A DNA stretch of 64,000 nucleotides from Lujinxingiaceae bacterium (GTDB lineage Bacteria > Myxococcota_A > Bradymonadia > Bradymonadales > Bradymonadaceae): NCBI GenBank assembly GCA_013697635.1, contig JACCWM010000099.1, positions 1-64,000 of the forward strand, in the 5' to 3' direction. The notes under the pieces are model-generated. The model searched no databases. It worked only from the letters and a program-made list of their open reading frames with translations, and was not told where the DNA came from. This document shows, in pieces, positions 2,820-64,000 of the stretch. The first letter of the stretch is position 1. The number at the start of each line of letters is the position of its first letter. The position numbers and the translations under genes are program-made.

Positions 2820-3051
2820 GCTCTTTCTCTCCATAACGTGGGGTAAGGCTTTAGCGCTGCCCGACCGGCCTTTGGAAGACTTCGTAAACATCAACAAATA
2901 ATCGTGAATTCTTGATTCGGTATTCCTCAATGGCGTACAACCTATATTGGCTTTTGCCCCAGCGCAAGGCCAACACGCCAGTATCGACGGGCTTTTCGAC
3001 TTGTTTTCATCGGTCCTTGAGCCCGTCTCCCACTCCAGCCACGCCATCATC

Positions 3052-4341
<1,290 letters not shown>

Positions 4342-4690
4342 ATTCCCCTCCCCACGCGTGGGGAGGTGGCGCTTTAGCGCCGGTGGGGCTCTTGCTGGAA
4401 CCCGCACGCCTCCGCAAGTTGCCTGACCCAACCCGCAGCCGCCCTCGAGCGCGGTTGCACGTTGCCTGACCCAACCTGCGACGACACTCGAGCGCGGCGG
4501 CGGGTTGGGTCATACAGAATGAATTTTCAGCTCATGGGGTCTCGCGACCCCACTTACCCAACCTGCAGCGACGATCGATCGCCACCGCAGGTTGGGTCAG
4601 GTAACCTGCAAGCGCGCAATTGGGGTCTTGCGACCCCACCCAACCAACATGCAGGGGGGTTGAGACGACTCTCTAGCTTCCCAGGCTGAT
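4342..4690 (+). repeat. Cluster of REP-like inverted repeats in a convergent intergenic space
   Basis: No gene is seen between epmA and the EI24 gene. The core unit is TGACCCAACCYGC. Copy 1 covers about 4418-4460 and copy 2 about 4461-4512, both beginning GTTGCCTGACCCAACC. Copy 2 ends in the complementary GCGGGTTGGGTCA, so it folds as a long hairpin. Copy 3 (about 4557-4605) is another hairpin, ACCCAACCTGC paired with GCAGGTTGGGT. Two small stems GGGGTCTCGCGACCCC (4536-4551) and GGGGTCTTGCGACCCC (4622-4637) punctuate the array, and another palindrome with TCCCCACGCGTGGGGA lies right after epmA. Transcription stop signals for both convergent genes could be provided by these hairpins, although no T-run follows. 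Confidence 0.75.
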
Positions 4691-4737
4691 TCACCGACGC
4701 CGCGAGGGCGCCGGGGTCTTGCAGGGAGGCGCGTGGA

Positions 4738-62465: not shown

Positions 62466-62547
62466 CGGGCCGGCTCCTCGCGGTTCAAATCGGTGGTTGC
62501 AGCGCAAACTACCACGATAATAGCAGAGTAGCGCGGAGAGAGACCCG

Positions 62548-62781
62548 TTGGATCAGCTTCAAGTCTACCTTGCTCGACCTGAAATCTCCCGCGATATAAG
62601 GTTGTTCGAAATGTACGTGGGCAGGCGGTTGCTCAAGAGGCGTGTTCCGAGCGAATTGATAGTCTATGAATTGAAGAACACAATTTCCGGAGTCTTACAA
62701 TATGAGCATCACATTGGATACAAACCTCGGACGCGTCGCCGTCGTGGTTACGAAGGGAGACCTCCCCGAAGCTGCGCTTGA
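62548..62781 (+). CDS. Small hypothetical ORF at the island edge
   Basis: 77 residues from a TTG start with GGAGAG about 9 bases upstream. The first 55 residues (DQLQVYLARPEISRDIRLFEMY) have a normal protein-like make-up with helix and strand content, but the last 22 are arginine-rich and overlap the next gene by 80 bases. The DNA is unusually AT-rich (24 of 60 bases are G or C in 62641-62700). It could be a real small protein, a truncated gene, or only leader DNA. No family was recognised. Confidence 0.3.
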   Translation: MDQLQVYLARPEISRDIRLFEMYVGRRLLKRRVPSELIVYELKNTISGVLQYEHHIGYKPRTRRRRGYEGRPPRSCA

Positions 62782-63355
62782 TAAAGCGGCCATCGGCGGT
62801 CTAGTTGGGATTGATACAGAGACTTCGGGGCTGGACTGGGCCAATGATCGATTAGGCTTGGTGCAAGTTTTTGTTCCGGCCTTGCATACGGTGTACCTCA
62901 TACATCCGACGGCGGAGACTCCTGCGCGCCTCGTGACTCTCCTCAAATCCGAGAGCTGGGTGAAGGTCTTCCACTTCGCTCTGTTCGACCTCCGGTTTCT
63001 CGCTGCCCGCTGGGGGATCACCCCCCTCAATATCCGATGCACAAAGGTCGCCTCCAAGTTGCTCGCACCGGCTCAGAAGAAGCACAGCCTGGCTGACTTG
63101 GTGAAGGCCCGCCTCGGCGTCGAACTTGACAAGACTCCGTCCATTCGGACGTCCGATTGGACCAATGATGAGCTGTCGGAAACTCAACTCCAATACGCCG
63201 CGCTCGACGCAGTCTACTTGCCTGCGTTGTTCGAGCTCCTGGAAGTAGAGCTCCAAGAGGCGGACCTCGCTGAACTAGCTTCTCAATCTTTCTCATTCCT
63301 TCCGACGCAACTGAGGGCTGACTTACTCGGCGTCGAAGGTCTCTTCTCCTATTGA
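62702..63355 (+). CDS. RNase D-like 3'-5' exonuclease (DEDDy)
   Basis: 217 residues. It is one exonuclease domain of the DnaQ/RNase D superfamily: GIDTETSG (D38, E40), HFALFDLRFL (D96), and LQYAALDAVYL (Y165, D169) supply the DEDDy metal ligands. The C-terminal HRDC domains of RNase D are absent. It probably degrades RNA or single-stranded DNA from the 3' end. The ATG at 62702 follows CCGGAG at 10 bases. Base composition differs from the neighbours, and the next gene starts 33 bases downstream, so the two may form an operon. It is probably part of an acquired segment. Confidence 0.82.
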   Translation: MSITLDTNLGRVAVVVTKGDLPEAALDKAAIGGLVGIDTETSGLDWANDRLGLVQVFVPALHTVYLIHPTAETPARLVTLLKSESWVKVFHFALFDLRFLAARWGITPLNIRCTKVASKLLAPAQKKHSLADLVKARLGVELDKTPSIRTSDWTNDELSETQLQYAALDAVYLPALFELLEVELQEADLAELASQSFSFLPTQLRADLLGVEGLFSY

Positions 63356-63388
63356 TTCCCACGATCGCTGCACCGGACCTTGACTGCT

Positions 63389-64000
63389 ATGTGCACCTTC
63401 CCCGTTTACCAAATAGAAACCTTTGAGTGGATCGAAGAGGAGAAAATCGGAAGTAAGGACAGCGACTGGTATTGCGTCAGAACACCGGCTCCAGGTCTCG
63501 AACTCAATGAGCGGTGGATCTTCAAGACGCCGAAGATTTTTCGTGGCGAGATTTGGGCGGAGAAAATAGCCGCGGAGATTGGTCAGCGTATGGGCCTCCC
63601 CACGGCCCGTATCGAACTGGCTCGTGGCGAATCGGAAGGAGACGCCATCAGCGGGACGATTTCTCTCAACTTCGCCGATCCCCGCAACGGGCTGACCTTG
63701 GAGCCTGGCAACGAGTTGATGGACGCACAGGCTCGTGTCCGGACCTACAAGAAGCATGACAAAGACGGTGTCCTCGCGCTCGACGCCGTCTTCGACTACC
63801 TCAACGAGAACAAGGTCCGTGCGCCGCTTGACGCGACCTTGCCCGACGAGGACGCGGCCTTCTACTTCACCGGCTACCTCGTCTTTGACGCTCTGATCGG
63901 CAATGTCGACCGTCATCATCAGAACTGGGGCGCTATCCGCACGCGCGATGGCACGCTCCACCTCGCACCTACATTCGATCACGGTGCCAGTCTTAGTCGC
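63389..64000 (+). CDS. HipA-like kinase, truncated by window end
   Basis: 204 residues are visible without a stop; the rest lies outside. The N-terminal part contains WIFKTPKIFRGEIWAEKIAA and GLPTARIELARG, the strand and ATP-binding-type region of HipA and related phosphatidylinositol kinase-like proteins. Near the end, DALIGNVDRHHQNWGAI holds the catalytic Asp and the GNxDRHxxNWG loop, followed by LAPTFDHGASL (the metal-binding aspartate). HipA-type kinases act as toxins by phosphorylating proteins. No HipB-like antitoxin is seen upstream. It lies 33 bases after the exonuclease gene in the same direction. Confidence 0.75.
   Translation, partial: MCTFPVYQIETFEWIEEEKIGSKDSDWYCVRTPAPGLELNERWIFKTPKIFRGEIWAEKIAAEIGQRMGLPTARIELARGESEGDAISGTISLNFADPRNGLTLEPGNELMDAQARVRTYKKHDKDGVLALDAVFDYLNENKVRAPLDATLPDEDAAFYFTGYLVFDALIGNVDRHHQNWGAIRTRDGTLHLAPTFDHGASLSR

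Follow-up and report, generated by a model that had tools for sequence, protein, structure and literature searches.

A dinuclease gene of the NrnC/diDNase family beside a probable hipIN (PDC-M03) kinase toxin-antitoxin pair in a Lujinxingiaceae bacterium

Gene content and base composition of the locus

The window analyzed here is the stretch of bases 1-64000 of a 66,335-bp contig from a Lujinxingiaceae bacterium, and our reading was extended 2.3 kb beyond its end. At the end of the window, a gene for a DEDDy 3'-5' exonuclease is followed by a gene for a HipA-like kinase (HipI, or PDC-M03A) and by the gene for its partner HipN (PDC-M03B) (Table 1). A first-pass annotation of the window had described the exonuclease and, 33 bases past its stop, the kinase, which was taken to lack an adjacent antitoxin. 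The open reading frames and their Pfam matches confirmed this order of genes, but the kinase proved not to be solitary: reading past the window for an antitoxin, as had been proposed, revealed the HipN gene, the start of which overlaps the 3' coding end of the kinase (stop at 64338) as ATGA.

Table 1. Coordinates of the features at the end of the window and in the adjoining part of the contig
Feature	Position	Strand	Remarks
DEDDy 3'-5' exonuclease, 217 aa	62702..63355	+	NrnC/diDNase dinuclease family; EXOII HFALFDLRF, C-terminal Tyr217
HipA-like kinase (HipI / PDC-M03A), in-window part	63389..64000	+	ATG start at 63389; HipA_C and PDC-M03A matches
Low-G+C cassette (56%), in-window part	62508..64000	.	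Far border at ~65336, past window end
HipN / PDC-M03B gene, 257 aa	contig 64335-65108		Past window end; PADLOC PDC-M03B match
277-aa protein gene	contig 65337-66170		Past window end; lineage-specific multi-copy family

The three genes and the gap upstream of them have a G+C content of 56% (56-57% for each gene individually), compared with 67% in both flanking genes, and the GC3 of the three genes is 0.66-0.70 versus 0.85 in the flanks (an aldehyde dehydrogenase gene before the cassette and the 277-aa protein gene after it). The lowest G+C content over 60 bp is 33%, at 62654. The fall in G+C near 62.5 kb that had been noticed earlier was therefore reproduced. It does not mark the edge of an island, as had been thought, because the composition returns to 67% at approximately 65.3 kb, which leaves a low-G+C stretch of approximately 2.8 kb with two visible borders. 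Composition alone is little proof, however, because other stretches of the window are equally A+T-rich (for example, a piece with 54% G+C near 18.5 kb). No tRNA was found in the low-G+C stretch, and scans for promoters and terminators gave results at chance level. No defence gene was seen among the annotated neighbours, which covered part of the upstream genes. A small ORF at 62548-62781 is probably not a gene: none of 57 related genomes contained a homologue, and it matched no family convincingly.

The 277-aa protein encoded after the cassette is present in six copies in the source genome and in up to 11 copies in related genomes, and had no significant match in Pfam, PHROG or PADLOC. A nested hairpin repeat of approximately 155 bp is located at 4449-4661 of the window and again at the contig end (66180-66335), with 92% identity between the two copies. 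A third full copy lies on another contig, and the source contig breaks at the repeat.

A degraded kinase and its HipS-HIRAN partner

The kinase matched HipA_C of Pfam (E = 7e-9) and PDC-M03A of PADLOC (2.5e-51), while in NCBIfam only YjjJ was matched, below threshold. Residues K46, D174, N179 and D197, which cover the ATP lysine, the catalytic Asp/Asn and the metal-binding Asp, are intact and are invariant across 11 sequences. An 8-bp tandem duplication of TATGTGGC at contig positions 64055-64070 shifts the frame, which stops at 64123 after 244 aa, and the C-terminal coding sequence resumes in another frame up to 64338. The kinases of relatives are single frames of approximately 300 aa, and the intact full-length kinase (279-321 aa) that characterizes hipIN / PDC-M03 is lacking here. 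The local kinase is a degraded member of hipIN / PDC-M03 and not a member of another family. Neither a DUF3037 match (Pfam) nor a PDC-M66 match (PADLOC), as would be expected of HipAD / PDC-M66, was found. Given the frameshift, the local hipIN copy is probably a defused module.

The product of the downstream gene matched PDC-M03B of PADLOC (9.7e-57) and is 33-34% identical to copies of the same family, although its own match to the HIRAN domain of Pfam reached only E = 0.17. In a set of 12 M03B proteins, Pfam recognized HIRAN in nine and Couple_hipA, the HipS-like N-terminal domain of HipA, in four. For an M03B homologue encoded on a viral contig, the AlphaFold2 model (pLDDT 93) resembled HipS over residues 2-118 (7vkb, Z 11.5; 8ezr, 11.2; 7ab3, 10.9) and HIRAN over residues 121-239 (3k2y, Z 12.9; further matches at 10.0-10.3, among them HLTF 4s0n at 10.3). 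The two-domain assignment of the contig's own HipN rests on the family alignment and the PADLOC match, with the fold taken from this homologue. On this modelled basis, HipN is predicted to be the two-domain antitoxin (HipS-like plus HIRAN) that has been known since 2021 from hipIN modules (PMC8262856). Of the two domain types, HipS neutralizes HipT kinases and HIRAN binds the ends of DNA (cited in PMC8262856). In the HLTF crystal, a DNA dinucleotide is bound to the HIRAN domain, the cavity of which "can accommodate only one dinucleotide" (PMC4666394). Where the HLTF pocket has its stacking Tyr (Y93), the contig's HipN has Ser and all six nuclease-linked copies have a non-aromatic residue, though Asn91 is kept in 70 of 70.

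Identity of the nuclease

The exonuclease matched DNA_pol_A_exo1 of Pfam (E = 4.8e-31) and has all of the DEDDy residues (D38, E40, D96, Y165 and D169) in a small, single-domain protein, in agreement with the size and catalytic residues of diDNases. Its best matches in the PDB were a reconstructed 'ancestor of diDNase' (4.8e-52) and diDNases, and NrnC was matched as well. Of the residues by which diDNases have been distinguished (Y206, F88 and H81; PMC11706625), two have counterparts here, namely the C-terminal Tyr (Y206) and the Phe of EXOII (F88), whereas the alphaproteobacterial and cyanobacterial NrnC sequences compared have a C-terminal His. The second His of EXOII (H81) is Phe in the window nuclease, as it also is in the nucleases of Nocardiopsis flavescens and Dietzia that adjoin hipIN; a diDNase H81F/Y206H double mutant is still DNA-specific (PMC11706625). 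In the phylogenetic tree, the diDNases and the window nuclease were split from the NrnCs (100/98), although a grouping of the window nuclease with NrnC was not rejected (AU p = 0.17). Enzymes of the diDNase type break down DNA dinucleotides (PMC11706625), and the window nuclease is probably a DNA-specific dinuclease of the NrnC/diDNase family. We use this name rather than that of a proven diDNase because Phe replaces H81.

A housekeeping RNase D was also considered and rejected. The other matches in the phylum are nearly all approximately 340 aa or longer, whereas the window protein has 217 aa and matches NrnC/diDNase. In addition, a same-phylum genome without M03B carries another NrnC/diDNase-like gene with a C-terminal Tyr (169-849 of its locus), at a contig end.

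Mobility of hipIN and one-way decay of the kinase

Modules of the hipIN/PDC-M03 type are carried by plasmids, by integrase-bearing tectivirus-like elements of Vibrio and by approximately 68 viral contigs. On these viral contigs, the kinase and M03B were found together in 108 of 109 overlapping loci. The viral scans gave these matches with alignments as queries, and none with a single M03B or nuclease protein. In the Vibrio elements (Vinavirales), such as PQ189286.1 (locus 3015-4729), the hipIN pair adjoins the integrase gene, and on the Rhodococcus plasmid NZ_CP088976.1 (locus 3088-4687) it separates hsdS from hsdM in a type I restriction system. Among cellular genomes, the distribution is patchy: 13 of 356 genomes in the window's phylum, 14 of 394 actinomycetes and 26 of 291 cyanobacteria.

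The same 291 cyanobacterial genomes were searched from both sides, with M03B and with the kinase, which removes the bias of starting with M03B. M03B was found in 26 genomes and the kinase in 20, and the kinase never occurred without M03B. At 10 cyanobacterial loci, a full M03B stood beside a kinase that was disrupted or lacking, and the reverse was seen at none, kinship between the loci being disregarded. Overall, broken or missing kinases were found at 10 of 24 cyanobacterial, three of 10 same-phylum, one of 12 actinomycete and none of 19 non-redundant viral loci; in one of the three same-phylum cases, M03B is shortened too. The lesions vary from locus to locus. The 10-to-0 asymmetry fits the prediction for a toxin-antitoxin pair, and this comparison of sequences suggests that HipI acts as the toxin, with HipN as an antitoxin that is predicted to neutralize it.

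Six cyanobacterial loci have a full HipN gene with a fragmentary or absent kinase and may represent solitary antitoxins. One Chamaesiphon genome encodes five further HipA-like kinases, several of them accompanied by a HipS/HIRAN-like gene in other arrangements.

Recurrence of the nuclease beside hipIN

The nuclease adjoins four of the 14 M03B matches among the 394 actinomycete genomes, including a Dietzia genome that was originally found through its nuclease. Together with a Nocardiopsis plasmid, these make up five further loci with a nuclease beside M03, all of them in Actinomycetes. The nuclease gene is downstream and co-directional in Dietzia, and downstream and convergent in the four others, including the plasmid; an upstream, co-directional nuclease is peculiar to the window locus among the six nuclease-linked loci. 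No nuclease was found beside hipIN in 12 other loci of the window's phylum, in 26 cyanobacterial loci (examined with short flanks) or in any of the viral loci. Because most hipIN loci are without it, the nuclease is not needed for the core function of hipIN. The first-pass annotation had named the absence of a conserved neighbourhood in other genomes as refuting its proposal, and this applies by half: the kinase and HipN stay together in nearly all loci, but the nuclease recurs only as an occasional extra.

In the M03B tree, the window copy groups with nuclease-free loci of its own taxonomic family (99/89), far from the actinomycete trios, and the well-supported branches cannot be reconciled with fewer than two changes in the nuclease link. 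In the nuclease tree, the window nuclease adjoins the nucleases of the actinomycete trios. The pairing thus either formed repeatedly, or formed a single time and was then frequently lost. Given the differing gene orders, we favour the view that it arose more than once.

Clusters of diDNase, HipA and HIRAN genes are already known from Actinomycetes and Clostridia (Mortensen 2025, PMC11706625). In that survey, one third of 93 diDNase genes adjoin HipA and HIRAN genes, a link that was left unexplained, and two thirds are paired instead with an HTH gene. Compared with the published clusters, the present locus is new in that the trio lies outside Actinomycetes and Clostridia, the nuclease is upstream and the kinase is broken; in addition, the trees indicate more than one origin for the link to hipIN.

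Discussion

Our preferred reading is that horizontal transfer brought in a hipIN (PDC-M03) cassette, in which a kinase toxin and its antitoxin are accompanied by an accessory dinuclease of the NrnC/diDNase family. We give a probability of about 0.78 to the identification and to the toxin-antitoxin interpretation, and this figure excludes the role of the dinuclease. The earlier suggestion of a defence or toxin module that had not been described before was half right: the module is listed in a database as a phage-defence candidate, but hipIN, PDC-M03 and the diDNase, HipA and HIRAN clusters were already described (PMC8262856, PMC11706625). As in hipIN (Gerdes et al. 2021, PMC8262856), a known prophage-borne module that corresponds to the PADLOC candidate PDC-M03, the gene for a short HipA-family kinase overlaps a downstream gene whose product combines HipS-like and HIRAN domains; the upstream dinuclease gene and the frameshift in the kinase set the local copy apart. 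Like the clusters of Mortensen 2025 (PMC11706625), the locus has the same three protein families as neighbours within a foreign segment, and its nuclease shares the C-terminal Tyr and the equivalent of Phe88 in EXOII. It differs from them in the bacterial group, in the upstream and co-directional rather than downstream position of the nuclease, in the Phe in place of His81, and in a HipN that falls within the hipIN lineage of the host family itself. A HipS-like fold as the likely kinase-neutralizing domain is shared with HipBST, but there HipS is a separate small protein that is accompanied by the HTH protein HipB, whereas the present locus has no HipB and joins the HipS-like domain to HIRAN in one protein. 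HipAD / DS-6 / PDC-M66 (PMC13092281, PMC12548924) is likewise a two-gene module of a HipA-like kinase and a partner other than HipB. However, its partner is DUF3037 rather than HipS-HIRAN. Phage defence has been shown for HipAD.

How might such a cassette work? HipN would restrain the HipI kinase, and its HIRAN domain may bind 3' ends of DNA, or very short single strands, that become accessible through the degradation of phage or host DNA or through replication. Loading of HIRAN would then free the kinase, which would phosphorylate an essential target and stop growth. The dinuclease would hydrolyze deoxydinucleotides to mononucleotides; by clearing small DNA able to fill the HIRAN pocket, it could set the threshold of the switch or reset it, which is the weakest step of the scheme. 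The dinucleotide-ligand step is weakened because the residue equivalent to Y93 is non-aromatic in the nuclease-linked HipN proteins. In its full form, the idea is that HipN is an antitoxin gated by deoxydinucleotides or DNA ends and that the diDNase-family enzyme is a dedicated signal eraser, comparable in its proposed role to the ring nuclease of type III CRISPR but acting on linear DNA dinucleotides. Two distant bacterial groups would have reached the pairing separately because the breakdown of DNA during infection makes the ligand. We regard this extended model as a speculation with rather poor odds.

A rival account makes the nuclease a passenger: hipIN and the diDNase-like genes would each travel as mobile cargo and have become neighbours by chance or by clustering in islands, with no link in function. 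Most hipIN loci are without the nuclease, its position and orientation vary among the six that have it, and two thirds of the published diDNases keep company with an HTH gene (PMC11706625), all of which would be expected of a passenger. However, six loci have the genes directly adjacent, the tree shows that the link changed more than once, and HipA and HIRAN genes adjoin a third of the published diDNase genes (PMC11706625). We hold this account to be plausible but less likely than not. We also considered the possibility that HipIN is a plain addiction or stability module that stabilizes mobile elements and has no defence role, the nuclease clearing the dinucleotides produced by element replication. 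Its presence on plasmids, prophage-like contigs and tectivirus-like elements is consistent with this. Nevertheless, the insertion between hsdS and hsdM on the Rhodococcus plasmid and the phage defence conferred by the related HipA-DUF3037 kinase pair (PMC12548924, PMC13092281) make it unlikely.

For the local copy alone, the chances appear evenly balanced that it is a decaying remnant, in which the kinase has become a pseudogene while the orphaned antitoxin and the nuclease are kept neutrally or as protection against incoming copies of the toxin. The tandem duplication that breaks the kinase and the frequency of orphan M03B genes elsewhere argue for a remnant. On the other hand, the frames of the nuclease and HipN are intact, with their catalytic and conserved residues kept, and the lesion in the kinase may have arisen recently, represent a minority allele or stem from faulty assembly. 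By contrast, a canonical HipA with a nearby HipB (HTH) antitoxin, the outcome that the first-pass annotation had named as fatal to its proposal, seems very improbable. Although the kinase core is HipA-like, no HipB was seen nearby, the downstream gene is of the HipS-HIRAN type and not HTH, and the match to YjjJ is sub-threshold.

The locus is thus mostly known, as a broken-kinase variant of the published diDNase-HipA-HIRAN cluster. The 2025 paper on diDNases left open why these nucleases lie beside HipA-HIRAN genes (PMC11706625). A second trio, which was apparently assembled separately, arranges its genes differently and occurs in bacteria other than the Gram-positives, is evidence that selection rather than inheritance accounts for the pairing. 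Considered together with the dinucleotide bound by the HIRAN domain of HLTF (PMC4666394), the trio introduces the question of whether a deoxydinucleotide opens the HipI-HipN complex. The main value of the locus lies in the independent evidence that it provides for a selected pairing, and in its pointing to a direct test.
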